Assembly: GCA_023819375.1 (NCBI GenBank)
Contig: JAMWDI010000007.1
Location: forward strand, 1 to 63,304
Length of the DNA stretch: 63,304 bases
From: Candidatus Omnitrophota bacterium
GTDB taxonomy: Bacteria; Ratteibacteria; UBA8468; B48-G9; JAFGKM01
Direction: 5' to 3'
In this document: piece by piece, positions 47,780-63,304 of the stretch
How the letters are laid out: each line of letters opens with the position of its first letter
How positions within the stretch are numbered: the stretch's first letter is position 1
Translations under genes and position numbers: made by a program
The notes under the pieces: model-generated
The model's database searches: none
What the model was told of the DNA's origin: nothing
The model's input: the letters and a program-made list of their open reading frames with translations, nothing else

Positions 47780-48866
47780 TAAACTTGTAAGAGAAGAAAT
47801 AAAAAAAATTGCTCCATATGTTCCAGGGAAACCAATAGATGAGTTAAAAAGAGTTTATAATATAGAAAAAATTGTAAAACTTGCTTCAAATGAAAATCCT
47901 CTTGGTTGTTCCCCAAAAGTAATAGAAGTATTAAAAGAAAATTTAAATGAAATTAATAGATATCCTGACGGTTCTTGTTATTATTTAAAAAAAGAATTAT
48001 CAAATTTTTTAAAAATACCGGAAGAAGAAATAATTGTTGGAAGTGGTTCAAGTGAGGTTATTTCTCTCACAATTGAAGCATTTGTAAATCCAGGAGAAGA
48101 GGTTATTTATCCTTTCCCATCCTTTATTATTTACAGAATTCTAGTTCTTAAAGTAGGTGGTATACCAGTTGAAGTTCTACTTGAAGATAACTTTTCCTAT
48201 AATCTTGATAAATTTTTAGAAAAGATTACATCAAAGACAAAAATAATAATTTTATGCAATCCAAATAATCCAACAGGAACAATTGTATATAAGGACCAAC
48301 TTGAAAAATTTCTTGAAAAAATTCCAGATAATATAATAGTTATTTCCGATGAGGCATACTTTGAATATGTAGAAGATGAAAATTTTGGTACCTGTTTCCC
48401 TTATTATAAAAATAAAAATATAGTTATAGCAAGAAGTTTTTCTAAAATTTATGGCCTTGCCTCTTTAAGAATTGGTTATGGCATTGGAAGAAAAGAAATT
48501 TTAGATTATATGGAAAGAATTAGACCTCCTTTTAATACAACAGGACTCGCTCAAATTGCTGCAATTACCGCATTGAAAGACCAGGATTTTGTAAAAAAAT
48601 CAATAGAAAATAACAAAATAGGCAAAAATTTTTTATATGAAAATTTCAAAAAACTTGGGATTGAATATATACCAACTGAGGCAAATTTTATATTATGTAA
48701 GTTTAAAAAAGATGCAACGGAAATAATAAAAGAACTTGAGAAAAGAGGAATTATAGTAAGAGGAATGAAAAGTTTTGGTTTAAGTAATGAATATGTGAGA
48801 ATAACAATAGGAACTCAAGAGGAAAATGAACTATTGATAAATTTTTTGACAAAAATTTTAAAATAA
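47769..48866 (+). CDS. hisC: histidinol-phosphate aminotransferase-like (HisC) PLP enzyme
   Basis: 365 residues from ATG 47769; a TTG at 47739 would add ten residues that only translate trpS codons out of frame. LASNENPLGCSPKVIE, GSGSSEVISLTIEAF, NPNNPTGTI, SDEAYFEY and the PLP lysine in ARSFSKIYGLASLRIGYG are the class I aminotransferase marks of HisC. It would act in histidine or aromatic amino-acid synthesis. The promoter of the next transcription unit starts within its 3' end. Confidence 0.9.
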   Translation: MNVDKLVREEIKKIAPYVPGKPIDELKRVYNIEKIVKLASNENPLGCSPKVIEVLKENLNEINRYPDGSCYYLKKELSNFLKIPEEEIIVGSGSSEVISLTIEAFVNPGEEVIYPFPSFIIYRILVLKVGGIPVEVLLEDNFSYNLDKFLEKITSKTKIIILCNPNNPTGTIVYKDQLEKFLEKIPDNIIVISDEAYFEYVEDENFGTCFPYYKNKNIVIARSFSKIYGLASLRIGYGIGRKEILDYMERIRPPFNTTGLAQIAAITALKDQDFVKKSIENNKIGKNFLYENFKKLGIEYIPTEANFILCKFKKDATEIIKELEKRGIIVRGMKSFGLSNEYVRITIGTQEENELLINFLTKILK

Positions 48867-48874
48867 CTTATAAT
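48846..48874 (+). promoter_or_regulatory. perfect consensus promoter of the glutamate-synthase-like gene
   Basis: TTGACA (48846-48851), exactly 17 bp, TATAAT (48869-48874). All twelve hexamer bases match consensus. It overlaps the end of hisC. Expected start near 48881, just before the first leader hairpin. Confidence 0.8.
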
Positions 48875-48882
48875 AAATAAAA

Positions 48883-48947
48883 ACACAAAGTAAGTGTAAA
48901 GGACAAAGAAGTCCTTTCTCCCAAAGTGGGGGAAAGGACTTTTATTT
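48883..48947 (+). ncRNA. dual-hairpin leader, ANTAR-type, ending in a terminator
   Basis: Hairpin 1: ACAC (48883-48886), loop AAAGTAA, GTGT (48894-48897). Box ACAAAGAAG at 48903-48911. Hairpin 2: arm 48910-48922, loop AAAGT(G), arm 48928-48940, then a T-rich tract. Drawn with a six-base loop AAAGTG (A1, G4), three G-C pairs close the loop and one U is bulged. The same plan recurs before nadE and amt. Dual six-base loops with A1 and G4 are what ANTAR-domain antiterminators recognise. Confidence 0.55.
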
Positions 48948-48950
48948 TTT
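48910..48950 (+). terminator. intrinsic terminator in the leader of the glutamate-synthase-like gene
   Basis: 13 pairs between 48910-48922 (AGTCCTTTCTCCC) and 48928-48940 (GGGGGAAAGGACT), with one G-U wobble and a five-base loop, followed by TTTATTTTTT at 48941-48950. It lies between promoter and gene, so it works as an attenuator or, less likely, ends transcription from hisC. Confidence 0.8.
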
Positions 48951-48971
48951 ATAAACAAAAAGGAGGGCAAA

Positions 48972-50543
48972 ATGGGATTTAGTAAATATAATGCAAGTGG
49001 AGTCAATTTTACAAGAAATAGGATTGAACCGTCTCCTATTTCTGGGATTTGTGTTACATGTCTTGATGGATGTCCAGGACCTTGTGAAATTGGAAAATCG
49101 GCAATAAGAGGAAGAGAATTGATTTATCCCCAACCTTTTGGAAAAGTCACTGCTGGTGGAGAAAAGAATTATCCAGTAGATTTATCTCATTTTAATATCC
49201 ATGGAACTTGTATTGGCGCTTATGGAATTGAAGCAGATCCAGATAAGGCAATTTTTCCAAATGTAGATATTCAAACTGAAGTGGGAAGAAATAATGATAT
49301 AAAACTAAAAGTCCCATTCTTTACAGGAGCACTTGGTTCTACTGATATTGCAAGAAATAACTGGGATCATTTTGCAGTTGGTGCTGCTATTTCAGGAACA
49401 ATTGTTGTAGTTGGAGAAAATGTATGTGGAATGGATCCAAAACTTGAATTGAAAAACGGAAAAGTTTATAAATCACCTGATATGGAACACAGAGTTAAAG
49501 TTTATAAAGAATGGTATGAAGGGTATGGCAATATTTTTGTTCAATTAAATGTTGAAGATACAAGACTTGGAGTTGCTGAATATGTAATTGAAAAATTGGG
49601 AGTAAATGCTATAGAGTTGAAATGGGGACAAGGAGCAAAAGATATAGGAGGAGAGGTTAAACTTCTTTCAATTGAAAGAGCAAAGCAACTTAAAGAAAGA
49701 GGATATATAGTTCAGCCAGATCCAGACGATCCTATTGTAAAAGAAGCATATAAAATTAAAGCAATAACTGAATTTGAAAGGCACTCTCGTCTTGGTATGG
49801 TTACAGAGGATGGATTTTTGAAAGAAGTTGAAAGATTGAGAAAAATTGGAGCAAAATATATTACATTAAAGACTGGTGCTTATAGGCCGAAAGATCTTGC
49901 ATTGGCTTTAAAACTCTCTTCTGAGGCTAAGATAGATTTATTAACAATTGATGCTGCTGGTGGAGGAACTGGAATGAGTCCGTGGAGAATGATGAATGAA
50001 TGGGGAATTCCCTTTGTTGAGTTAGTCTCATTAACCTATAAATATTGCCAGAGATTGAAAGAAAAGGGTAAATATGTTCCACCGATTGCTTTTGCAGGTG
50101 GAATTGCTTTTGAAGATCAGGTTTTTAAAGTTTTTGCTTTAGCAGCGCCATTTACAAAGGCAGTATGTCTTGGAAGAGCAACAATGACAGCAGGAATGGT
50201 TGCAAAAACAATTGGGGAAATGATTAAAAAAGGAAATATTCCGAAAGATTATAAAGAGCATGGAAATAAAATTGAACAGATTTTTATAAAAGGTGAAGAA
50301 TTATTGAAAAAATATGGTAAAGAAAGATTTAAAAAGATGCCAGTTGGTGCAATTGGAATCTATACTTATTATGATCGTCTCGCAGTTGGTTTAAAACAAC
50401 TTATGGCAGGTGCAAGAAAATTTGCATTAAAATATATCTCAAGAGACGACATATTTGCCTTGACAAAAGAAGCATCAGAAATATCGGGAATTCCTTTTGT
50501 TATGGATTCAGATAAAGAAAAAGTTGATGAAATATTGGGTTGA
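48972..50543 (+). CDS. glutamate-synthase-like FMN-binding protein (GltB2-type)
   Basis: 523 residues. The central and C-terminal parts are the FMN/[3Fe-4S] glutamate synthase domain: ELKWGQGAKDIGGEVK, YITLKTGAYRPKDLALAL, LLTIDAAGGGTGMSPWRMM, IAFAGGIAFEDQVFKVFALAA, GRATMTAGMVAK. The glutaminase domain of full GltB is absent. The N-terminus has CVTCLDGCPGPCEIGK, four cysteines that could hold an iron-sulfur cluster. Such short proteins occur in archaea and anaerobes, as the GltB core or as relatives with unknown activity. The ATG follows AAGGAGGG. The attenuated leader supports a role in nitrogen assimilation. Confidence 0.8.
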   Translation: MGFSKYNASGVNFTRNRIEPSPISGICVTCLDGCPGPCEIGKSAIRGRELIYPQPFGKVTAGGEKNYPVDLSHFNIHGTCIGAYGIEADPDKAIFPNVDIQTEVGRNNDIKLKVPFFTGALGSTDIARNNWDHFAVGAAISGTIVVVGENVCGMDPKLELKNGKVYKSPDMEHRVKVYKEWYEGYGNIFVQLNVEDTRLGVAEYVIEKLGVNAIELKWGQGAKDIGGEVKLLSIERAKQLKERGYIVQPDPDDPIVKEAYKIKAITEFERHSRLGMVTEDGFLKEVERLRKIGAKYITLKTGAYRPKDLALALKLSSEAKIDLLTIDAAGGGTGMSPWRMMNEWGIPFVELVSLTYKYCQRLKEKGKYVPPIAFAGGIAFEDQVFKVFALAAPFTKAVCLGRATMTAGMVAKTIGEMIKKGNIPKDYKEHGNKIEQIFIKGEELLKKYGKERFKKMPVGAIGIYTYYDRLAVGLKQLMAGARKFALKYISRDDIFALTKEASEISGIPFVMDSDKEKVDEILG

Positions 50544-50609
50544 TCTTGGATTTGGAAAAATTTAAAAAAGAAAAAAATAAATCTTTCCTTTATTGTTTAA
50601 AATATAGTT

Positions 50610-50638
50610 TGCAGAAGGAATAGAAATATTGTAAAATT
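50610..50638 (+). promoter_or_regulatory. putative purF operon promoter
   Basis: TTGCAG (50610-50615), 17 bp, TAAAAT (50633-50638). The leader of about 17 bases before ATG 50662 shows no Shine-Dalgarno sequence. The 118-base gap 50544-50661 holds no other recognisable element and lacks the ANTAR-type hairpins. Confidence 0.45.
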
Positions 50639-50661
50639 TTAAAAAATAATTCCATCTAAAA

Positions 50662-52044
50662 ATGATTAAAGAAAATTGTGGTATCGTAGGTGTTTATAAT
50701 GTTAAAGATGTTCCAAAAATTTTGTATTTTCTACTTTTTTCTCTCCAGCATAGAGGTCAGGAAAGTTGTGGTATAATTTTTTCTGATTTTAAAAACACAT
50801 ATATTTATAAAGGGATGGGACTTGTAAGTGATGTTTTTAGTAAATTTGATTTTGAGAAATATAAAGATTCTGGTTTTGGAATTGGACATGTAAGATATTC
50901 AACGACTGGAAGTCCTGATATTAAAAATATACAACCCTTCATTGTAGAGTATAAAGGTAAAAAATATGGTATTGCTCATAATGGAACACTTGTAAATAGT
51001 TATACTTTAAGGGAAGAACTTGAAAGCGAGGGGACTTTATTTCAAACGACACTTGATACAGAAATAATAATGCATCTTATTTTTAAATCAAAAAAACAGA
51101 ATTTTATTGATAAACTTATTGATGCATTAGAAAAAATTAAAGGTGCCTATTCACTTTTAATTTTTTCTCCTAATGGAATATATGCCATTAAAGATCCAAA
51201 TGGATTTAGACCCTTATGTTTAGGAAAATTTGGAGATGGTTATATTGTTGCTTCTGAAAGTTGTGCTTTTGATCTTATTGGAGCAAATTATATAAGAGAA
51301 ATTGAAGAAGGAGAAATTTTACATATAGGAGAAAATGGACTTAAAAGTTATTATTTACCAAAAAATAAAATTTCAAGATGTATTTTTGAATTTATATATT
51401 TTGCAAGACCTGATAGTAAAATTTTCGGAAAAAGTGTTTATATTGCAAGGAAAAAACTAGGTGAAAATTTGGCCAAAGAAATATCATTTAAAGTAGATTT
51501 AGTAGTCCCTGTTCCAGACTCTGGAAATATTGCTGCAATAGGACTTGCAGAAAAATTAAAAATTCCATTTGAAATGGGTTTTATAAGAAATCATTATGTT
51601 GGAAGAACATTTATTATGCCATTTCAAATTTCAAGAGAGATTGGGGTGAAGTTAAAATTAAATCCTGTTAAAGAGATTATAAAAAATAAAAGTATAATTG
51701 TAGTTGAAGATTCAATAGTTAGAGGGACAACAAGTACTTTAAGAATTAATGAGTTGAGGAAAGCAGGGGCAAAAAATGTTTATATGGCAGTGAGTTCTCC
51801 TCCTATAAAATATCCATGTTTTTATGGAATTGATTTTCCAACGAAGGATGAGTTGATTGCATCAAATAAAACTATAGAAGAAATTAAAGAAATTATTGGA
51901 CTTGATGGTTTACACTATCTTTCACTTAAAGGTATGCTTTTTTCTATGGATTTGCCAGAAGATGAATTTTGTACTGCATGTTTTACTGGGGAATATCCTG
52001 TTGAAATTATTGATTTTAAAGGTAAAGAACAATTTGAAAGATGA
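50662..52044 (+). CDS. purF: amidophosphoribosyltransferase
   Basis: 460 residues. NCGIVGVYN at the N-terminus has the catalytic cysteine (Cys6) after a five-residue propeptide, as in PurF forms that are processed. QHRGQESCGI, GHVRYSTTG and HNGTL complete the glutaminase; the PRPP site IIVVEDSIVRGTTS lies near residue 350. It takes the amide of glutamine for the first purine step. No cluster cysteines of the B. subtilis type are obvious. carA overlaps its stop (ATGA). Confidence 0.97.
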   Translation: MIKENCGIVGVYNVKDVPKILYFLLFSLQHRGQESCGIIFSDFKNTYIYKGMGLVSDVFSKFDFEKYKDSGFGIGHVRYSTTGSPDIKNIQPFIVEYKGKKYGIAHNGTLVNSYTLREELESEGTLFQTTLDTEIIMHLIFKSKKQNFIDKLIDALEKIKGAYSLLIFSPNGIYAIKDPNGFRPLCLGKFGDGYIVASESCAFDLIGANYIREIEEGEILHIGENGLKSYYLPKNKISRCIFEFIYFARPDSKIFGKSVYIARKKLGENLAKEISFKVDLVVPVPDSGNIAAIGLAEKLKIPFEMGFIRNHYVGRTFIMPFQISREIGVKLKLNPVKEIIKNKSIIVVEDSIVRGTTSTLRINELRKAGAKNVYMAVSSPPIKYPCFYGIDFPTKDELIASNKTIEEIKEIIGLDGLHYLSLKGMLFSMDLPEDEFCTACFTGEYPVEIIDFKGKEQFER

Positions 52045-53126
52045 AAGGGTATCTTGTAATTGAAGACGGAACAATATATAAAGGGAATACATTCGGAGCA
52101 AAAGGAGAAAAATTTGGAGAACTTATTTTTAACACAAGTATGACTGGCTACCAAGAAATTATATATGACCCTTCTTATAAAGGACAAATAGTCGTTATGA
52201 CTTATCCTTTAATTGGAAATTATGGTGTGAATAGTGAAGATATAGAATCATATAAAATTCACCTTGAAGGGTTTGTTGTTAAAGAAAAAAGTAAAATTTA
52301 TTCAAATTGGAGGGCAGAAAAATCAATTGAGCAATTATTTGAAGAAAATGGGATTATTGGTATTGAAGATGTTGATACACGAAGAATAACTGAGATTATA
52401 AGAGACAAAGGTGCACAAAAAGCAGGTATTTTTACAGGTGAAAATGATCCTAAAGAGATGCTTGAAAAAGTTAGAAAATCTCCTTCTATTGTTGGTGTAG
52501 ATCTTGTTAAATATACCATAAGAGAAGAACCGTATTGGTGGAAAAAAGAAGGAAAATATAAAGTTGTTGTAATTGATTGTGGAGTTAAATATAATATTTT
52601 GAGGTTGCTATCAAAATATGATTTAAAAGTCATTGTTTATCCAGCAACTACGCCTTATGAGGAAATTATAAAAGAAAATCCAGATGGAATATTGTTATCA
52701 AATGGCCCAGGAGATCCAGAGCCTTTAAAATATATTATAAAAAATGTCTCAAATCTTGTTGAAAGGTATCCTATCTTTGGAATATGTTTAGGCCATCAGA
52801 TTTTAGGACAAGTTTTTGGTGGCAAAACTTATAAATTGAAATTTGGTCATCATGGAGCAAATCATCCTGTGAAGGATTTGAAAACAGGTAAAATTTATAT
52901 TACAGTTCAAAATCATGGTTTTTGTGTTGATATAAATACTATTAAAGATCCAGATATAGAAATGACTCACATAAATTTAAATGATTACACACTTGAAGGA
53001 ATAGAACACAGAAAATTACCTGTATTTTCTGTTCAATTTCATCCTGAAAATGCACCAGGGCCAAGAGATGCTGAATATTTATTTAAAAAATTTTACAGGA
53101 ATATAGAAAATGCCAAAAAGGACTGA
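52041..53126 (+). CDS. carA: carbamoyl-phosphate synthase small subunit
   Basis: 361 residues. [25 protein letters not shown]-type N-terminal domain and C-terminal class I glutamine amidotransferase with [11 protein letters not shown] (catalytic Cys near residue 250) and [13 protein letters not shown] (His, Glu). It feeds ammonia from glutamine to CarB. It overlaps purF by four bases and carB1 by 17. Confidence 0.97.
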
Positions 53127-54759
53127 TATAAAAAGGATATTGTTGATAGGTTCTGGTCCTATAATAATTGGACAAGCCTGTGAATTTGATTATTCTGGTT
53201 CTCAAGCATGTAAAGCACTAAAGGAAGAAGGTTATGAAGTAATTTTAGTGAATAGTAATCCAGCGACAATAATGACAGATCCAGATATGGCAGATAAAAT
53301 TTATATTGAACCGCTAATTGCTGAAATTGTAGCCAAAATAATTGAAAAAGAAAGACCTGATGCACTTTTACCAACGCTTGGTGGACAGACTGCTTTAAAT
53401 ATAACTACACAACTTTATGAAATGGGAATTTTAGATAAATTTAAAGTAAAATTGATTGGAGCAAACTATTATGCTATTAAAAAAGCAGAAGATAGAGAAT
53501 TATTTAAAAAATCAATGGAAAAAATTGGTTTAAAAGTTCCTAAAAGTGGTATAGCCCATAATTTAAAAGAAGCAGAAGAGGTTGCTAAAAAAATTGGTTT
53601 TCCAGTAATTATAAGACCTGCTTATACTCTTGGAGGAACGGGAAGTTCCATTGCTTACAATATTGAAGAATTTAGAGAATATGCTGAGGTTGGATTGAAA
53701 GCAAGTTTAATAAGCGAAATTTTAATAGAGCAATCACTTTATGGATGGAAAGAATATGAACTTGAAGTAATGAGGGATTTAAAAGACAATGTAGTTATAA
53801 TATGTTCAATTGAAAATTTTGATCCAATGGGAGTTCATACTGGTGATAGTATAACTGTCGCACCTGTTCAAACATTAACAGATAAAGAGTATCAAAATAT
53901 GAGAGATGCTGCAATTAAAATAATAAGAGAAATAGGAGTTGAAACAGGTGGAAGTAACATTCAATTTGCTGTAAATCCTGAAAATGGAGAAATGGTTGTA
54001 ATTGAAATGAATCCAAGAGTTTCAAGAAGTTCTGCCCTTGCTTCAAAAGCGACAGGCTTTCCAATAGCAAAAATAGCAACTAAACTTGCAATTGGATATA
54101 CTCTTGATGAAATACCAAATGATATCACTAAAAAAACCCCTGCCTGTTTTGAACCTACAATTGATTATTGTGTTGTTAAAATACCAAAATTCAATTTTGA
54201 AAAATTTCCAGGTTCCTTACCATATCTTTCAACATCAATGAAATCAGTAGGTGAAGTTATGGCAATTGGAAGAACTTTTAAAGAAGCATTACAAAAAGCC
54301 TTAAGAAGTTTAGAAGAAAATTTTTTTGGTCTTGAAGATATAAATTTAAAAATGGAATTAGAGGATGGGTTAAGAATTCCAAATCCTTATAGAGTTTTTT
54401 ATATTAAGAAAGCCATAAAAGAAGGAAAGACAATAGATGAAATTTATAATTTATGTAAGATAGATAAATGGTTTCTTTCAAATATAAAGGAAATTGTTGA
54501 TTTTGAAAAAGAAATTGAAAAATTTAAAAATAGAGAAATTGACTATGAAACAATGAAAAAAGCGAAAGAACTTGGATTTTCTGATAGGCAAATAGGAAAA
54601 ATAGTTGGTAAAAGTGAGATAGAAATAAGAAACCTTAGAAAAAGATATGGAATTGAAGTTGATTATAAATGTGTAGATACCTGCGCAGCAGAATTTATTG
54701 CATATACACCATATTATTATTCAACCTATGAACATCCAGAAGTTATAAAGTTGGAATAA
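53110..54759 (+). CDS. carB1: carbamoyl-phosphate synthase large subunit, N-terminal half (split CarB)
   Basis: 549 residues, equal to the first half of a normal ~1070-residue CarB: carboxyphosphate ATP-grasp domain with [44 protein letters not shown] and [17 protein letters not shown], then the oligomerisation domain ending [19 protein letters not shown]. The stop TAA lies exactly in the linker to the second half, which starts one base later in another frame. Split CarB is known from some archaea and Aquificales. Confidence 0.95.
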
Positions 54760-54760
54760 A

Positions 54761-56332
54761 ATGGAAAAACGAGTAATTATACTTGGTGGAGGACCAAACA
54801 GGATAGGACAAGGAATAGAATTTGATTATTGTTGTGTTCATGCTTCTTTTGCTTTAAAAGAAGATGGATATGAAAGTATAATGGTAAATTGCAATCCTGA
54901 GACGGTAAGCACCGATTACGATACTTCAACACGACTTTATTTTGAACCTATAACATTTGAAGATGTAATGAATATAATTGAAAAAGAAAAACCAATAGGT
55001 GTAATTTTACAGTTTGGAGGACAAACTCCTTTAAAACTTGCTCTTCCGTTAAAAAATGAAGGTGTTAAAATTCTTGGAACAGACCCTGTTGCAATTGATA
55101 TAGCAGAAGATAGAAAAAAATTTAGTAAATTATTAGAAAAATTAAATTTGAATCAACCACCTAATGGAACTGCCTTTACTTATGAAGAAGCAAAAAAAAT
55201 AGCAAATGAATTAGGATATCCTGTTCTTGTAAGACCTTCATATGTGCTTGGAGGAAGAGCAATGGAAATTGTTTATGATGAAGAATCTTTAAAAGAATAT
55301 ATAGAAAAAGCAGTTGAAGTATCTCCTGAACATCCAATTTTAATAGATAAATTTCTTGAAGATGCAATTGAAGTTGATGTGGATGCAATATGTGATGGCC
55401 AGATTTGTGTTATTGGAGGAGTTATGGAGCATATAGAAGAAGCAGGAATACATTCAGGAGATAGTGCTATGGTTTTGCCACCATATTCTTTAAAAAAAGA
55501 AATAGTTGAAGAAATAAAAGAATCGACAAAAAAAATTGCTCTTTCATTAAATATAATTGGACTCATTAATATTCAGTATGCAATAAAGAATGATAAAGTA
55601 TATGTCCTTGAAGTTAATCCCCGTGCTTCAAGAACAATCCCATTTGTGAGTAAAGCAATAGGTATTCCCCTTGCAAAATTGGCAACTAAAATAATGCTTG
55701 GTAAAAATTTAAAAGAACTTAATTTTACAGAAGAAATTGAATTGAATTATTTTGCAGTAAAAGAATCCGTTTTTCCATTTAATAGATTTGGTAATGTAGA
55801 TGCAGTACTTGGCCCTGAAATGAAATCAACCGGTGAAGTTATGGGGATAGATAAAAGTTTTGAAATTGCTTATGCGAAAAGTCAATTAGCAGCAGGACAA
55901 AATTTACCAATAAGAGGAAATGTGTTTATAAGTGTAAAAGATAAGGATAAGCCACATATAATTTCAATTGCAAAAGAATTGGAAATACTTGGATTTAAAA
56001 TATTAGCAAGTGCAGGGACAGGAAAAGTTCTATCTGAAGCAGGAGTAAATGTAAAGATTATACCTAAAATTTATGAAGGAAGACCTAATATACTTGATTA
56101 TATTATAAATGATGAAATTTCACTTATAATTAATACTCCCTCTGGTAAAAAACCCAAAAAAGATATTGTTTCAATAAGAACAATTGCTGTTCAAAGAAAT
56201 ATTCCACTTATTACAACAATTCCTGGCGCAAAGGCAACTTTATATGCGATAAAAAAATTAAAAGAAAGCCAACTAAATGTAATAGATATTAAAGAATATT
56301 ATAAGATGAGAAAAGATGGTGGGAATAATTGA
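54761..56332 (+). CDS. carB2: carbamoyl-phosphate synthase large subunit, C-terminal half (split CarB)
   Basis: 523 residues. The carbamoyl-phosphate ATP-grasp domain: [62 protein letters not shown]. The C-terminal MGS-like allosteric domain (about 395-523) begins [13 protein letters not shown] and includes [20 protein letters not shown]. The ATG overlaps the end of carB1's stop region (TAA-A-ATG), so reinitiation is likely. guaA overlaps its end by 17 bases. Confidence 0.95.
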
Positions 56333-57836
56333 TTTTGGTTCACAATATACACAACTTATAGCAAGAAGGATTAGAGAACTCAATATTTATTGTGAAATCT
56401 TTCATTTTACAACAAAATATGAAGAATTAAAAAATAAAAATGTAAGTGTTTTGATTCTATCAGGTGGTCCAGGTCATGTGGATAAAGAAAATTTAAGATT
56501 TGACGAAAAGATTTTTAAAAATAATGAATTTTATATTTTGGGCATTTGTTATGGAATGCAACTTATAGCAAAATATTTTGGGGGAAAAGTTTCTCATGGG
56601 AAGGTAAGAGAATATGGAAAAACAATTTTCTATCCAGATATTAATGAAGAAATTTTTGAGGGTTTAAAAAAAGAAACAATTGTTTGGATGAGCCATTGGG
56701 ATTATGTAAGTGAATTGCCAGAGAATTTCAAAGTGATCGGTAGAACAGATAATATTAAAATTGGTGCCTTTAGAGATAAAAATAAAAAAATTTATGGATT
56801 GCAATTTCATCCAGAAGTTATTCATACAAAAGAGGGAAAAAAAATTTTAAAAAATTTTCTCTTTAATATATGTAATTTAAAATCAGATTGGAATCCTGGC
56901 TCAATAATTAAAAAAATTAAGAATGAAATAAAAGAAAAAGTCAAAGATGAAAAAATTATATGTGCATTAAGTGGAGGAGTTGATTCTTCTGTTTTGTCTT
57001 TAATTTTAAATGATGTATGTGGTAAAAATTCTTTAAGCATATTTGTAAATAATGGACTTTTAAGAAAAAATGAACCAAAAGAGATAATAAATTTTTTTAA
57101 AGATAAAGTGAATTTTAAATATGTTGATGCTTCAAAATTATTTCTTGAAAGATTGAAAGATATAGAAGATCCAGAAGAAAAAAGGAAGATTATAGGTAAT
57201 ACATTCATTGAGGTTTTTGAGAAAGAAGGAAAAAGATTTGGTGCAGAATATCTTGCCCAAGGGACGTTATATCCTGATGTTATTGAAAGTACTTCTCCTT
57301 TTAAAGGACCATCGGTAAGAATAAAAACACATCACAATGTTGGGGGACTGCCTCAAAATATGAAATTTAAACTTATTGAACCATTTAAATTTTTATTTAA
57401 AGATGAAGTAAGAAAAATTGCAAAAAAAATGAATTTGCCTGATTTTATAATTAAAAGGCATCCATTTCCAGGACCTGGACTTGCAGTAAGGATAATAGGT
57501 AAAATAACGAAACAACAACTTGAAATATTGAAAGATGCTGATTTTATAGTTGAAGAAGAAATTAAAAAGGCAGGCATTTATGATAAAATTTGGCAGGCAT
57601 TTGCAGTTTTATTACCTATTAAAAGTGTTGGAATTATGGGAGATAAAAGAACTTATGAGAACGTTATTGCTATTAGAATTGTTAAAAGTGTAGATGGAAT
57701 GACTGCTGATTGGGTAAAAGTTCCATATAAAGTCCTTGAAAGAATATCAAACAGAATTGTTAATGAAGTAAAAGGAGTAAATAGAGTTGTATATGATATC
57801 ACTTCAAAACCACCTGCTACAATTGAATGGGAATAA
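56316..57836 (+). CDS. guaA: GMP synthase (glutamine-hydrolysing)
   Basis: 506 residues. The N-terminal amidotransferase has [37 protein letters not shown] (catalytic Cys near residue 76) and [10 protein letters not shown]. The ATP-pyrophosphatase domain has [14 protein letters not shown], and the C-terminus [11 protein letters not shown] and [11 protein letters not shown]. It converts XMP to GMP with glutamine. It is the last gene of purF-carA-carB1-carB2-guaA and faces the pyrG remnant tail to tail. Confidence 0.97.
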
Positions 57837-57838
57837 TT

Positions 57839-58540
<702 letters not shown>

Positions 58541-58569
58541 TTTTGTTTATTTTGCTATAAAAAAGCGTA

Positions 58570-58694
58570 TTTCCTCAAAAATAGATCTATTTGAAATTAT
58601 GTTTCTAATAAGGCATTTTTCATTCCTTGATATATTTTTTTCCAGTTTTCTTTAAAATAGATGTTCGCTTTTGTCAATTCTATTTTTGAGGAAA
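58570..58694. repeat. 16-bp perfect inverted repeat enclosing 93 bp
   Basis: TTTCCTCAAAAATAGA (58570-58585) recurs as its exact reverse complement at 58679-58694. The 125-bp unit lies between the pyrG remnant and the nadE promoter and contains no gene. It could be a small non-autonomous transposon (MITE) or the stem of a long hairpin. The flanks show no clear target duplication. Confidence 0.5.
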
Positions 58695-58702
58695 AAGAAT
58701 TT

Positions 58703-58731
58703 TTGACAAAAATTGAAAATAGTTATAATAT
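58703..58731 (+). promoter_or_regulatory. nadE promoter
   Basis: TTGACA (58703-58708) with TAATAT at 17 bp (58726-58731) or TATAAT at 15 bp (58724-58729). Expected start near 58736, directly at the first leader hairpin. This places the promoter downstream of the in-frame ATG at 58661, which therefore cannot be the nadE start. Confidence 0.65.
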
Positions 58732-58735
58732 ATTT

Positions 58736-58802
58736 AAAGGAGAAAGGCCTCCTTTCAGACAAAGAAGTTCCTGCCCAAAGAAGGGAAAAAATCTAAAAGG
58801 AG
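58736..58802 (+). ncRNA. dual-hairpin ANTAR-type leader of nadE with possible Shine-Dalgarno sequestration
   Basis: Hairpin 1: AAAGGAG (58736-58742), six-base loop AAAGGC with A1 and G4, CTCCTTT (58749-58755), seven perfect pairs. Box ACAAAGAAG at 58759-58767. Hairpin 2: CCC (58774-58776), loop AAAGAA with A1 and G4, GGG (58783-58785). There is no U tract, so no terminator. The 3' arm of hairpin 1 is also exactly complementary to the Shine-Dalgarno AAAGGAG at 58796-58802, and UUCCU (58768-58772) can pair with AGGAG there. Confidence 0.6.
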
Positions 58803-58810
58803 AAAATATT

Positions 58811-60418
58811 ATGGAAAATATTAAAATTGCTTTATGTCAATTGAATTTTACTGTTGGAGATATTTTAGGTAATACAGAAAAAATTATAAAAGCGATTGAA
58901 TATGGAGAAAAAGAAAAATGTAATTTTATTTGTTTCCCTGAACTTGCTATAACAGGGTATCCACCAGAAGATTTATTATTAAAAGAAAAATTTATAGAAG
59001 ACAATTTGAAAAGTTTAGAGAAAATAAAAGAAAATGTAAAAAATTCTGTTGTAATTGTTGGCTTTGTAAACAGAGCAAATAATAAAATTTACAATTCTGC
59101 TGGAGTTATAGATAAAGGAGAAATAATTGGTATCTACAATAAAAAAATACTTCCAAACTATGGTGTATTTGATGAAAAAAGATATTTTGAAGAGGGAAAA
59201 GAAGATGGTTTTTTTGAAATTAATGGCATAAAGTTTGGAGTTACAATATGTGAGGATATATGGCATAAAGGAGGTCCTTATAAAAAACAGATTGAAAAGG
59301 GAGCAAAATATATTTTTGTTTTAAATGCTTCTCCATATCACTACAAGAAAATCAAAGAAAGAAAAAAAATTATAAAAGAAATATGTTTAAAATATGATGT
59401 TTTTTTATTTTACACAAATCTTGTTGGAGGCCAAGATGAACTTGTTTTTGATGGCCAGAGTTTGGTAGTTAATAATAAGGGAGAAATTATAAAAAAGGGA
59501 AAACTTTTTGAAGAGGAAATTTTAATATTTTCATTAAAGGATAAACCAATTGAGATTAAAGAGATTAATGAATGTGAGGAAATATATAAAGGGCTTGTTT
59601 GTGGCCTGAGGGATTATGTATATAAAAATAATTTTAAAAAAGTTGTTGTTGGATTAAGTGGTGGCATTGATTCTGCACTAACTGCAACAATTGCTGTTGA
59701 TGCACTTGGAAAAGAAAATGTTATTGGTGTTTTTATGCCTTCAAGGTTTTCATCTATTCAATCATATTTAGATGCAAAAAAACTTGCAGAAAATCTTGGA
59801 ATAGAATTTAAAGTAATATCAATTGAAAAAATTTTTAATTCTTATCTTGAGACATTAAAAGAAATATTTAAAGATAGACCATTTGATATCACAGAAGAAA
59901 ATATTCAAGCAAGAATAAGAGGAAATATTTTAATGGCTTTATCAAATAAATTTGGATATCTTGTTTTAACAACTGGAAATAAATCAGAAATGAGTGTTGG
60001 ATATGCAACTTTATATGGAGATATGGCCGGTGGTTTTGCTGTTATAAAAGATCTTTATAAAACAATGGTATATAAGATAGCAAAGTGGAGAAATTCAATA
60101 TCTTCGGTTATACCCGAAAATATATTCATAAAAGAACCAACAGCAGAATTGAGAGAAAATCAAAGAGATACAGATACATTGCCACCTTATGAAATTCTTG
60201 ATCAGATTTTGAAAGAATATATAGAGAATGATAAAAGTTGTGAAGAAATTATTGATATGGGTTTTGACAGAGAGATTGTTAAAAAAATTATAAAAATGGT
60301 TGATAAAAATGAATATAAAAGAAGGCAAGCACCTCCTGGAATTAAAATAACACCAAAGGCATTTGGTAAAGATAGAAGAATGCCAATTACAAATAAATAT
60401 TTAAAATGGAATATTTAG
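58811..60418 (+). CDS. nadE: glutamine-dependent NAD+ synthetase
   Basis: 535 residues from ATG 58811, eight bases after AAAGGAG. The longer frame from 58661 would translate the promoter and leader RNA and adds 50 residues with no family match. The N-terminal nitrilase-type glutaminase has the triad in FPELAITGYPPEDLL (Glu), YNKKILPNYGVFDE (Lys) and GVTICEDIWH (Cys). The C-terminal synthetase has VGLSGGIDSALTATIAVD and TTGNKSEMSVGYATLYGDM. It makes NAD from deamido-NAD using glutamine. The sigma-factor gene overlaps its end by 13 bases. Confidence 0.95.
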   Translation: MENIKIALCQLNFTVGDILGNTEKIIKAIEYGEKEKCNFICFPELAITGYPPEDLLLKEKFIEDNLKSLEKIKENVKNSVVIVGFVNRANNKIYNSAGVIDKGEIIGIYNKKILPNYGVFDEKRYFEEGKEDGFFEINGIKFGVTICEDIWHKGGPYKKQIEKGAKYIFVLNASPYHYKKIKERKKIIKEICLKYDVFLFYTNLVGGQDELVFDGQSLVVNNKGEIIKKGKLFEEEILIFSLKDKPIEIKEINECEEIYKGLVCGLRDYVYKNNFKKVVVGLSGGIDSALTATIAVDALGKENVIGVFMPSRFSSIQSYLDAKKLAENLGIEFKVISIEKIFNSYLETLKEIFKDRPFDITEENIQARIRGNILMALSNKFGYLVLTTGNKSEMSVGYATLYGDMAGGFAVIKDLYKTMVYKIAKWRNSISSVIPENIFIKEPTAELRENQRDTDTLPPYEILDQILKEYIENDKSCEEIIDMGFDREIVKKIIKMVDKNEYKRRQAPPGIKITPKAFGKDRRMPITNKYLKWNI

Positions 60419-60891
60419 AACTTATCAAAAAATTAAAAAGTAAATTAGAGCATATGGTAAAAGGGCTAAAAAATGAGGGAGATGGTTTTGATATAGATGA
60501 TTGTCTCCAAGAAATTTACTTATATTTATGGATTGAATGGAATAATGGAAATATTAAAGAAAAAAATGAAAGTTATATTTTAAAAAGTTGTTATTATCAC
60601 CTGAAAAATTTTTTAAGAAAAAATAAATCACTTAAATTTATCAGTTTGGAAGAAATAATGGAAAATAATAGTTTGTTTGATGTTCCTAACAATAGTCAAA
60701 ATTCATACTTAATAGACTTTGAAAAAATGTATAACATATTAAACGAAAGAGAAAAAAAAGTTGTAAATTTTATAATGGCTGGATATACAATAAGAGAAAT
60801 TGGGAAAAATTTAGGAATTTCTCACGTTATGGTTTTAAAAATTATAAAAAAAATCAGAAGCAAGATAAGTAATTTAAAAATAGAAATTTAA
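60406..60891 (+). CDS. small sigma-70 family (ECF-like) RNA polymerase sigma factor
   Basis: 161 residues. The N-terminal half has FDIDDCLQEIYLYLWIEW (about 26-43), the region 2 helix that binds core polymerase, and NESYILKSCYYHLKNFLRKN. The C-terminal half is region 4: LNEREKKVVNFIMAGYTIRE and IGKNLGISHVMVLKIIKKIR, a helix-turn-helix reading the -35 element. The linker is short and there is no anti-sigma gene beside it. The ATG lies inside nadE, so both are made from one mRNA; amt follows after its own attenuated leader. It may direct transcription of nitrogen genes, by context only. Confidence 0.75.
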   Translation: MEYLELIKKLKSKLEHMVKGLKNEGDGFDIDDCLQEIYLYLWIEWNNGNIKEKNESYILKSCYYHLKNFLRKNKSLKFISLEEIMENNSLFDVPNNSQNSYLIDFEKMYNILNEREKKVVNFIMAGYTIREIGKNLGISHVMVLKIIKKIRSKISNLKIEI

Positions 60892-60936
60892 TTTTTAGGT
60901 TACCAAAAGTGGAAAATTTTTACTTTATATATTAAA

Positions 60937-61008
60937 GATCCGAAGTAGGGTCAAAAAAAGAAAAACAAAGGCGTTTTCCCCAAGGCCGGGAAAGCGCCTT
61001 TTTTATTT
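60937..61008 (+). ncRNA. dual-hairpin ANTAR-type leader of amt
   Basis: Hairpin 1: GATCC (60937-60941), loop GAAGTA with G4, GGGTC (60948-60952), five pairs including one wobble. Box ACAAAGGCG at 60965-60973. Hairpin 2: arm 60970-60981, six-base loop AAGGCC (A1, G4), arm 60988-60998, with three G-C closing pairs and one bulged C, then a T tract. The only departure from the A1/G4 rule is G at loop position 1 of hairpin 1. Confidence 0.55.
60970..61008 (+). terminator. intrinsic terminator in the amt leader
   Basis: GGCGTTTTCCC (60970-60980) pairs with GGGAAAGCGCC (60988-60998) over 11 positions with one wobble, followed by TTTTTTATTT. The ATG of amt is at 61022, so transcription must pass this hairpin to express amt. 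Confidence 0.8.
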
Positions 61009-61021
61009 TAAGAAGAGAAAA

Positions 61022-62320
61022 ATGGATATACAAGTAATTATAAATACTATCTGGGTTCTTGTAACTGCAAAACTTGTATTTTTTATGAATCTTGGTTTTG
61101 CAATGGTAGAAAGTGGTTTTACAAGAACAAAGAATACAACAAATATTCTATCAAAGAACTTTATTGTTTTTGCAATTGCCTCTCTGGCTTATTTATTCCT
61201 TGGATGGGGTTTAATGTTTGGAGATGGAAATGGATTTATTGGATTAAAAGGCCTATTTTTATTACAGGGACCAGATAATTCTCCTTTAACAGGAAATGAT
61301 TATAGAGGGGTTTATTCTGCATTGTCCTGGGTTAAAGTTCCTTTATATGCAAAATTCTTTTTTCAACTCGCTTTTTGTGGAACAGCAGCGACAATTGTTT
61401 CAGGTGCAGTTGCAGAAAGAATTAAGTATCTCTCCTTTATTATCTTTAGTTTTTTAATGTGTATGTTTATATATCCTGTTGTCGGACATTGGGTGTGGGG
61501 AGGGGGCTGGCTTGCAAAAATTGGAATGCTTGACTTTGCAGGTTCTACAGTTGTCCATTCAGTTGGTGGATGGGCTGCATTGGCAGGGATTTTATTACTA
61601 GGGCCGCGTTTTGGAAAATATGAAAATGGTAAAACCAATATTATTCCAGGTCATAGTTTACCACTTGCAACTATAGGAACATTTGTTTTATGGTTTGGTT
61701 GGTTTGGATTTAATCCAGGCTCTACAATGACTGCAGATCCTGTTGCAATAAGCCACATAGTAGTTACAACAAATACAGCGGCTGCAACTTCAATAATTAG
61801 TTCTACTATAACTTCTTATATTTTACTTGGTAAGCCAGACCTTGGTATGACTTTAAATGGCTGTCTTGCAGGATTAGTTGCTATAACTGCTCCTTGTGCA
61901 TTTGTAACAGTTGGTGCTTCTATATTTATAGGGATTATTGCTGGAATTTTGGTTGTTCTATCTGTTTTATTTTTTGACAAAATAAAAATTGATGATCCAG
62001 TTGGAGCCCTTTCAGTTCATCTTATAAACGGAATCTTTGGAACTATATCTGTTGGTCTTTTTGCAAAAGATAAAATAGCAGGGATAAGTACAGGGAATGG
62101 TTTGTTTTATGGAGGAGGTGTTAAACTTTTAAAAATACAACTTCTTGGTGTTGTTTCTGTTGGTATTTTTGTTTTCACACTTTCTTTAATTTTCTGGTAT
62201 TTTATCAAAAAAACTATTGGAATAAGAGTTAGTTTAAGAGAAGAAATAGAAGGACTTGACATAGGAGAACATGGAAATATTGCTTATCCTGAATTTTACA
62301 TTAAAAAAACATATTTTTGA
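61022..62320 (+). CDS. amt: ammonium transporter Amt
   Basis: 432 residues, eleven predicted helices. Signatures: FMNLGFAMVESGFTRTKNT, FQLAFCGTAATIVSGAVAER, the first pore histidine in STVVHSVGGWAAL (about residue 180) and the second in GALSVHLINGIFGT near residue 330, forming the twin-His pair. No cleavable signal peptide is obvious. It takes up ammonium, is gated by the P-II protein of the next gene, and is controlled by the upstream terminator. Confidence 0.95.
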   Translation: MDIQVIINTIWVLVTAKLVFFMNLGFAMVESGFTRTKNTTNILSKNFIVFAIASLAYLFLGWGLMFGDGNGFIGLKGLFLLQGPDNSPLTGNDYRGVYSALSWVKVPLYAKFFFQLAFCGTAATIVSGAVAERIKYLSFIIFSFLMCMFIYPVVGHWVWGGGWLAKIGMLDFAGSTVVHSVGGWAALAGILLLGPRFGKYENGKTNIIPGHSLPLATIGTFVLWFGWFGFNPGSTMTADPVAISHIVVTTNTAAATSIISSTITSYILLGKPDLGMTLNGCLAGLVAITAPCAFVTVGASIFIGIIAGILVVLSVLFFDKIKIDDPVGALSVHLINGIFGTISVGLFAKDKIAGISTGNGLFYGGGVKLLKIQLLGVVSVGIFVFTLSLIFWYFIKKTIGIRVSLREEIEGLDIGEHGNIAYPEFYIKKTYF

Positions 62321-62332
62321 AAAGGAGAAATT

Positions 62333-62671
62333 ATGAAAAAAATTGAAGCAATAATAAGACCTGAATTTTTACTTAAAATTAAAAAAGAACTTGAAAAAAT
62401 TGGACATTTTGGTTTGACTATCACTGATGTAGAAGGTTGCGGAAAACAAGGTGGAATAATTCGTAATTGGAGAGGCGAAAAATATAAAGTTGAATTTGTT
62501 GAAAAGGTCAAGTTAGAGATTATTGCTAAAGATATTGATGTGGAAAAGATAGTAAAAATTATAATAAATACAGCAAGAACAGGAGAAATTGGAGATGGGA
62601 AAATCTTTATTTTACCTGTTGAAAGTGTGATAAGAATAAGAACGGGAGAGGAAGGAGATGCAGCAATATAA
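62333..62671 (+). CDS. glnB: nitrogen regulatory protein P-II
   Basis: 112 residues. KKIEAIIRPEFLLKIKKEL at the N-terminus, the T-loop RNWRGEKYKVEFVEKVKLE with the uridylylation-type tyrosine (about residue 51), and the B/C-loop signature TARTGEIGDGKIFILPVES. P-II senses 2-oxoglutarate, ATP/ADP and controls Amt, GlnA or regulators. Being next to amt it is of GlnK type. AAAAGGAG precedes the ATG. Confidence 0.95.
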   Translation: MKKIEAIIRPEFLLKIKKELEKIGHFGLTITDVEGCGKQGGIIRNWRGEKYKVEFVEKVKLEIIAKDIDVEKIVKIIINTARTGEIGDGKIFILPVESVIRIRTGEEGDAAI

Positions 62672-62756
62672 GAAGGTGTCCAAAATTTTCACTTGCTATC
62701 AATATCACAATGATTATTTTGAAATTTTTAAAGGCAAAAAATTAAAGGAAGTAAAT

Positions 62757-62819
62757 ATGTATGGTGAAAAAATAATTAGAAACTTTTTAAAATTAAAGAA
62801 AGGAGGTAATTATGAATAA
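62757..62819 (+). CDS. possible 20-residue leader peptide upstream of glnA
   Basis: ATG 62757 follows AAAGGAAG and encodes MYGEKIIRNFLKLKKGGNYE; its stop (62817-62819) overlaps the first codons of glnA in another frame. The glnA ribosome site AAAGGAGG lies inside it. It could couple glnA translation or be chance; nothing in the peptide is diagnostic. Confidence 0.2.
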   Translation: MYGEKIIRNFLKLKKGGNYE

Positions 62820-63304
62820 GGGATTAAAGAAAGAAGATGTTTTGAAGATTTGTAAAGAGAGAGATGTAAAATTTATAAGATTGTTTTTTTCAGATATTGT
62901 TGGACAGATGAAAGGTTTTTCTATACCTGTAGAAGAACTTGAAGGAGCACTTGAAGATGGTATGGGATTTGATGGTTCTTCAATTAAAGGATTTGCAAGA
63001 ATTGATGAATCTGATATGATTGCTTTACCAGACCCAAGCACTTTTACAATTTTACCATATAGACCAAAAGAAAAGGCAGTTGCAGCGATGATATGTGATA
63101 TATTGAATCCTGATAGAACTCCATATGAAGGTGATTCAAGATATATATTGAAGAAAAATTTAGAATATGTAAAGAATAAGGGATATACATTTTATGTTGG
63201 ACCTGAACTTGAATTTTTTATATTTAAAAATGACAGAAGTACAGAAATTCTTGATGAAGGAGGATATTTTGATGTAACAACACTTGATGCAGCAACTGAT
63301 GTGA
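62812..63304 (+). CDS. glnA: glutamine synthetase type I, N-terminal part (3' end outside window)
   Basis: 164 codons are visible and the frame is open to the window end. FIRLFFSDIVGQMKGFSIPV and MGFDGSSIKGFARIDESDM are the β-grasp domain with the conserved Asp of the ammonium site, PDPSTFTILPY follows, and FYVGPELEFFIF starts the catalytic domain with the first metal-binding glutamates. It joins ammonia to glutamate. Full type I enzymes have about 440-470 residues. The ATG is eight bases after AAAGGAGG. It closes the amt-glnB-glnA set. Confidence 0.97.
   Translation, partial: MNKGLKKEDVLKICKERDVKFIRLFFSDIVGQMKGFSIPVEELEGALEDGMGFDGSSIKGFARIDESDMIALPDPSTFTILPYRPKEKAVAAMICDILNPDRTPYEGDSRYILKKNLEYVKNKGYTFYVGPELEFFIFKNDRSTEILDEGGYFDVTTLDAATDV

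Follow-up and report, generated by a model that had tools for sequence, protein, structure and literature searches.

Genes and leaders of the glutamine island

Our analysis concerned the contig JAMWDI010000007.1 of a Candidatus Omnitrophota bacterium (63,304 nucleotides; hereafter the window), which is the entire contig C4 of a genome, G000, of 1.73 Mb and 13 contigs that is 93.8% complete. The last 14 kb of the window carry, on the plus strand, genes for a glutamate-synthase-like (GOGAT-like) protein, PurF, CarA, CarB (two open reading frames, ORFs), GuaA, NadE, a sigma-like protein, Amt, P-II and the start of GlnA. Leaders with tandem hairpins, whose loops have A at position 1 and G at position 4 (A1/G4), precede three of these genes, gltB (GOGAT), nadE and amt. 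We conclude that this island is very probably under an ANTAR antitermination regulon that covers both the supply of glutamine and the demand for it and is read by one GAF-ANTAR protein. The regulon is group-wide and not peculiar to one contig.

The genes were called from ORFs together with Pfam searches on eight proteins; CarA, CarB and GlnA were named through translations and homologues, not Pfam. They are as follows.

48972 to 50543, plus strand: GOGAT-like protein (Pfam PF01645)
50662 to 52044, plus strand: PurF amidophosphoribosyltransferase (Pfam GATase_6/7)
52041 to 53126, plus strand: CarA (translation; relatives up to 90% identical)
53110 to 54759, plus strand: CarB, N-terminal half (ORF translation, relatives)
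54761 to 56332, plus strand: CarB, C-terminal half (ORF translation, relatives)
56316 to 57836, plus strand: GuaA (Pfam GATase and GMP_synt_C)
57845 to 58534, minus strand: decayed PyrG remnant (pieces share 78–84% identity with the intact PyrG of G000)
58811 to 60418, plus strand: NadE, glutamine-dependent type (Pfam CN_hydrolase and NAD_synthase)
60406 to 60891, plus strand: sigma-70-region-4-like regulator (Pfam scores below cut-offs; neighbours in relatives)
61022 to 62320, plus strand: Amt ammonium transporter (Pfam)
62333 to 62671, plus strand: P-II protein (Pfam)
62812 to 63304, plus strand: N-terminal part of GlnA, truncated at the end of the contig (ORF translation)

From PurF through GuaA, consecutive genes overlap or abut, and co-transcription from gltB to guaA is predicted. 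An earlier note on this DNA had described an island of glutamine economy grouped by nitrogen donor; ORFs, Pfam and homologues bore out the island, and the grouping was supported, while the sigma-like gene had been missed. Of the five glutamine amidotransferases that the note had counted, four (PurF, CarA, GuaA and NadE) are intact. The fifth, PyrG, is a dead fragment between GuaA and NadE, and the intact PyrG of G000 lies on contig C12.

The relative G003 has no PyrG remnant at this place, and PyrG has an ANTAR-type leader in G042 and G073. CarB, which is two adjacent ORFs here (53110–56332), is likewise split in G003 and G017. For the window GOGAT, Pfam gave an FMN-type glutamate-synthase domain only; this gene lacks the amidotransferase domain, and large GltB and GltA-like genes of relatives also bear leaders.

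The elements of the three leaders are listed below, with loops in square brackets. R1 is a covariance model that was trained without G000 and whose E values are rough.

48846 to 48874, plus strand: gltB promoter, TTGACA-17-TATAAT (12/12 consensus match)
48883 to 48897, plus strand: gltB hairpin 1, ACAC[AAAGTAA]GTGT (sequence; loop of 7 nt under strict pairing)
48898 to 48917, plus strand: gltB hairpin 2, AAAGGAC[AAAGAA]GTCCTTT, the putative antiterminator (R1 match, E 2e-4; folds)
48907 to 48943, plus strand: gltB intrinsic terminator, strong, overlapping hairpin 2; its 5′ arm starts in the second loop
48919 to 48932, plus strand: third A..G hexaloop of gltB, TCCC[AAAGTG]GGGG, the apical part of the terminator
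58703 to 58731, plus strand: nadE promoter-like site
58736 to 58755, plus strand: nadE hairpin 1, AAAGGAG[AAAGGC]CTCCTTT; 3′ arm complementary to the Shine-Dalgarno sequence (SD)
58758 to 58769, plus strand: nadE hairpin 2, GAC[AAAGAA]GTT (R1 match 58757–58786)
58774 to 58785, plus strand: nadE hairpin 3, CCC[AAAGAA]GGG (same R1 match)
58796 to 58802, plus strand: nadE SD, AAAGGAG (paired in the lowest-energy fold)
60937 to 60952, plus strand: amt hairpin 1, GATCC[GAAGTA]GGGTC
60962 to 60977, plus strand: amt hairpin 2, AAAAC[AAAGGC]GTTTT
60967 to 61001, plus strand: amt intrinsic terminator, strong, overlapping hairpin 2

Across the three leaders, G stands at loop position 4 in all hairpins and A at position 1 in all but one, as the earlier note had claimed for six hairpin loops; the nadE leader has three hairpins and no terminator. 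The motif ACAAAGRMGT was seen five times in the window, against 0.54 expected, and no shuffle reached five. Two of the five were rejected because they fall within ORFs (11604 and 43280, minus strand). Over the whole 1.73 Mb genome, R1 ranked the gltB leader first (E 0.0018) and the nadE leader second (E 0.029). The amt leader was not in this ranking; a smaller search gave it 19.4 bits (E 0.034). An Rfam scan of the window gave nothing at the gathering threshold.

Synteny with G003 extends over the whole island and all three leaders: the gene order is the same, the proteins are 67–93% identical and only 290 bases separate GuaA from NadE in G003. Comparison of the leaders of the two genomes showed compensating stem changes, with A1/G4 retained in the loops. 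In G003, hairpins 1 and 2 of gltB are TTAC[AAAGAA]GTAA and AGAGGAC[AAAGGG]GTCCTTT, and those of amt are AATCC[AAAGTA]GGATT and AAAAC[AAGGGC]GTTTT.

The GAF-ANTAR protein

PF03861 (ANTAR) was found once in G000 (E 1e-21; domain score 75.3 bits against a cut-off of 27.3), on a contig other than the window, and no ANTAR gene was found in the window. This agrees with the earlier note, which had placed the regulator elsewhere in the genome; the note had expected a response regulator with a histidine kinase, and the gene found encodes instead a one-component GAF-ANTAR protein. Of the 35 genomes examined in the class, 21 likewise have a single ANTAR domain above the Pfam cut-off. The protein consists of a GAF domain, a long helix (residues 149–199) and the ANTAR domain (mean predicted local distance difference test score of the modelled structure, 86.6). 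GAF thus stands where response regulators of the EutV/NasT type have REC, and the protein is not of that type.

The RNA contacts of EutV are given in PMC8934654 as R142, K143, K147, K149, E160, Y164 and M172. They align with R185, K186, K190, K192, E203, Y207 and M215 of the GAF-ANTAR protein, all of which are kept, in an alignment for which we inferred a two-residue numbering offset of the chain. Among 27 homologues R185, K186, K192, E203 and M215 are invariant, and Y207 is present in all but a few.

The solved folds closest to the modelled GAF domain are the EI-Ntr (PtsP) GAF domains of Acinetobacter and Coxiella, and the EI-Ntr GAF domain has been reported to bind glutamine (PMC4848567). 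The likeness is one of fold and sequence. Further fold matches were the cAMP-bound Lcd1 GAF and the NifA GAF, so that other ligands are conceivable. Our guess is that the domain reads the glutamine or 2-oxoglutarate pool, with glutamine itself as a tentative candidate.

At locus L002, an N-terminal remnant of a second PurF (L002:8121–8330, minus strand) directly follows the GAF-ANTAR gene and is 60% identical to an intact second PurF at the same place in G003. In Candidatus Omnitrophus magneticus SKK-01, the GAF-ANTAR region is found on many contigs (L049–L055, L057 and L070), in most of them with nadE adjacent; these repeats are probably an assembly duplication.

Gene company of the ANTAR gene

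PurF, CarAB, GOGAT, GuaA, NadE, GlnA, Amt and P-II recur near the GAF-ANTAR gene in varying combinations. At least one of 11 island proteins (at least 35% identity) was found at 28 of 40 ANTAR loci, mostly of Omnitrophota, and none at the other 12. In comparison, 45 control ORFs of the window's first 48.9 kb, which differ from the island queries in length and conservation, matched 3 of the 40 loci (Fisher test, 8e-9). These 40 loci were kept out of 56 after removal of eight duplicate Omnitrophus magneticus contigs, one Elusimicrobia locus, two fragments and five loci of other phyla. G017, which belongs to another family, has a single run of GOGAT, CarA, CarB, NadE, Amt, P-II and GlnA. In G001 the GAF-ANTAR gene lies directly upstream of GOGAT and itself has such a leader.

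The sigma-like gene adjoins GAF-ANTAR or Amt in relatives L036, L037, L045, L146 and L151. In G043 and G063 it has ANTAR-type leaders of its own, and it may be a second regulator of the same circuit.

Leaders in relatives

Nine upstream regions of GOGAT genes were picked by protein homology and not by motif. Of these, eight have A1/G4 hairpins, and the ninth is that of G001. The nadE leader was seen in three genomes that are each other's closest relatives, G000, G003 and G005, and in G032, and the amt leader is clear in G000 and G003. Leaders also stand before divergent Amt genes of the class, in G020 (two) and G027, and before glutamine synthetase genes in G020 and G027. Thus the further leaders before nitrogen genes that the earlier note had proposed to look for were found, and they persist where relatives have the genes scattered. 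Neither of the two outcomes that the note had named as refuting was observed, and its shared RNA-level signal is supported.

A second model, R2, gave 58 matches in 29 of 36 ANTAR-bearing genomes (E ≤ 0.3, these E values being rough too; at most 150 candidates scored per genome, so that weak leaders may be missed). Leaders of the window, G003, G005, G016, G021, G022, G026 and G032 were among its training set, and the matches there are not independent. A terminator T-run lies within 45 bases of 33 of the 58 matches, and 22 of these 33 precede nitrogen genes as identified by BLAST or hidden Markov models. The targets are GDH (5), GOGAT (3), GltB (1), glutamine synthetase III (1), P-II (1), PurF (1), CarA (2), CarB (2), PyrG (2), a class I amidotransferase of unspecified kind (1) and a NifH-like gene (3, in one array). 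Probable targets are an FAD/NAD-binding subunit (2; the next ORF looks like GltA) and an outer-membrane-like protein (2; Amt is next in one). Three matches, in two leaders, precede the sigma-like gene, and the others lie before a NuoE-like gene (1), at a contig edge (1) and inside ORFs (2). The 25 matches without a T-run are mostly coding sequence; they include the leader of a further FAD/NAD subunit (G076) and a site before a sigma-like gene in the Elusimicrobia genome (G074). In 17 control genomes of one other phylum, of which G037 was the one checked for ANTAR (none found), there were 11 matches at this E cut-off, all inside ORFs and none with a T-run (0/11; Fisher test, 4e-4).

Several matches were rejected. 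Those of R1 or R2 within GlnB (L048:1565, L058:7014, G059 and G062:C42) and the match at G006:C260 are coding sequence, and the R2 matches in G000 outside the window (C3:234223, C8:93566 and C3:104766) are within ORFs or at ORF starts and have no terminator.

Forty leaders were aligned in alignment A9, which was fitted to the model and so favours model pairs; MAFFT alignments misplaced the hairpins and were not used. A9 contained 64 double-change pair cells against 18.9 after shuffling, and sliding the structure lowered every measure. A1 and G4 were present in all 39 six-base first loops (39/39, from 40 rows), although the model that selected the rows favours them. A second A/G..G hexaloop lies 3′ of the first in 22 of the 40 rows, and upstream of it in 4 of the other 18. 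In five single-hexaloop leaders (L210, L236, L238, L246 and L250) a strong promoter ends 5–11 bases before the hairpin, which leaves no room for an upstream hairpin.

Folding of the leaders and the proposed switch

In the gltB leader, the terminator fold has −28.1 to −28.5 kcal/mol; hairpins 1 and 2 together have −10.4 kcal/mol, or −17.9 kcal/mol when hairpin 3 is added. In the amt leader the corresponding values are −29.4 against −8.2 or −11.4 kcal/mol. Hairpin 2 and the terminator overlap and are mutually exclusive in both leaders. Since the terminator folds are far more stable, the default state of both would be OFF, and a protein would be needed to hold the hairpins. The nadE leader has no such overlap, and its SD is paired instead: in the lowest fold (−16.5 kcal/mol) the SD is paired with CTCCTTT of hairpin 1, while the three-hairpin fold, in which the SD is free, has −11.6 kcal/mol and is about 5 kcal/mol costlier. 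The probability that the SD core is unpaired averages 0.27 in the nadE leader of G000, 0.22 in that of G003 and 0.11 in that of G005. It is 0.94–0.96 in the two terminator leaders of G000 and ranges from 0.13 to 0.62 in six further leaders that have no clear terminator.

We propose that one GAF-ANTAR protein, encoded on another contig, reads the A1/G4 hairpins in the leaders of gltB(-purF-carAB-guaA), nadE and amt-glnB(-glnA). In the absence of this protein, terminators would form in the leaders of gltB and amt, with the loop and 3′ arm of hairpin 2 serving as the terminator 5′ arm. In its presence, hairpin 2 would be held, as would the apical hairpin 3, and transcription would proceed. In the nadE leader, the default fold would hide the SD through the 3′ arm of hairpin 1, and the three held hairpins would release it. 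The protein would then raise the supply of glutamine (Amt, GlnA and GOGAT; GDH in relatives) as well as its use (PurF, CarAB, GuaA and NadE; PyrG in relatives), and since the same protein would read all leaders, supply and use would be raised together. A wider reading, in which a glutamine-sensing GAF-ANTAR protein sets the making and spending of glutamine across Omnitrophota through switches of three kinds (attenuators with two or three hexaloops, promoter-proximal single-hexaloop attenuators and leaders that release the ribosome-binding site, RBS), is possible but doubtful.

Alternative explanations

Several observations weigh against the proposed regulon or parts of it. R2 gave nothing in 7 of the 36 ANTAR-bearing genomes (E ≤ 0.3), and most nadE genes of the class have no leader. 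G005 bears leaders, yet no ANTAR was found in this genome, which is 82% complete. Among the 40 model-aligned leaders, 14 have a single hexaloop only, and both hexaloop hairpins have been reported as necessary in E. faecalis. The translational switch at nadE is drawn entirely from folding, and it is put forward as a hypothesis because the pairing partner of the SD is not common to the three nadE leaders, that in G003 and G005 differing from that in G000. This switch has a rival, in which ANTAR binding to nadE-like leaders blocks translation, as in mycobacteria. According to PMC8164766, ANTAR RNAs of actinobacteria are often repressive and overlap with the RBS; here the SD lies downstream of the hexaloop hairpins and, in G000, is already paired in the default fold. 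We regard a block of translation as unlikely.

The leaders might instead be ordinary terminators with chance hairpins, in which AAAG recurs through its pairing with the terminator U-tract. Loop positions 2–6 do pair with the 3′ arm of the terminator, and this could explain part of the AAAG conservation. However, A..G hexaloops remain in leaders that have no terminator (nadE of G000, G003 and G005; gltB of G016 and G026), and the T-run matches lie mainly at nitrogen and regulator genes of ANTAR-bearing genomes, with none in the controls, which makes this explanation most improbable. A riboswitch, or control of the leaders by a different RNA-binding protein, with GAF-ANTAR acting on other targets, is scarcely more credible. 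Binding by GAF-ANTAR is predicted, and some leaders are single-hexaloop. Against this, the window has no Rfam match, the only ANTAR gene of each genome adjoins the same target genes and is itself leader-bearing in G001, and the RNA-contact residues are kept. Control by ANTAR, which we prefer, does not fix the signal, and what the GAF domain reads is probably not glutamine; the alternatives are 2-oxoglutarate, a cyclic nucleotide, nitric oxide and redox state. The ligands of GAF domains are diverse, and the Lcd1 and NifA GAF domains are also among the fold matches. The pointer towards glutamine is a weak one, at 25–27% identity.

Comparison with known systems

The leaders resemble those of EutV-type antitermination in the eut genes of Enterococcus faecalis (Ramesh et al. 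2012, PMC3369931; PMC8934654) in the A1/G4 hexaloops, in the RNA-contact residues of the protein, and in a hairpin 2 that is mutually exclusive with an intrinsic terminator. As far as these sources describe that system, the present one differs in that GAF replaces REC, some leaders have one or three hexaloops, and one leader type has no terminator. Ramesh et al. predicted ANTAR leaders before genes for P-II, ammonium transporters, glutamate, glutamine and arginine synthases and nitrogenase. The ANTAR nitrogen regulons predicted there for Desulfotomaculum and Pelobacter have similar nitrogen targets and tandem attenuators, but they belong to different phyla and, as presented in the main text of that paper, have no amidotransferase targets (purF, carAB, guaA, pyrG or nadE). 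The terms "amidotransferase", "GMP synthase" and "NAD synth" are absent from that text. Actinobacterial ANTAR RNAs (PMC8164766) share control at the level of the RBS; as described there binding hides the RBS, whereas here it is predicted to free it. The EI-Ntr sensor, whose GAF structures are the closest, has this domain joined to a phosphotransferase and not to ANTAR (PMC4848567).

Our literature search found no paper on ANTAR control in Omnitrophota and, among the papers listed, none linking ANTAR to purF, nadE, guaA or CTP synthase. NitR of Clostridium saccharobutylicum, which is of the response-regulator type, reportedly exerts ANTAR-type control of glnA and glutamate synthase. The mechanism is thus known; within the literature covered, the glutamine-spending targets, a one-component GAF-ANTAR protein as the sole regulator, the occurrence in this host group and the variant leaders appear to be new. 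A nadE leader that releases a sequestered RBS also seems to be new. ANTAR control, known for nitrogen uptake and catabolism, here appears to reach enzymes of purine, pyrimidine, GMP and NAD synthesis that spend glutamine, and glutamine supply and demand would be set jointly by one protein. The candidate single-hexaloop leaders bear on the role of the upstream hairpin, and the ligand of a one-component GAF-ANTAR sensor is directly testable.

Minor observations on leaders in relatives

Secreted or outer-membrane-like proteins without a Pfam match bear leaders at L207:1704–2492, where Amt is next, and at L226:667–1428; possibly they are an ammonium-linked porin. In L252 (G064:C228, minus strand, about 76–450), four tandem dual-hexaloop leader-terminators lie between one promoter and the start of a NifH-like gene.

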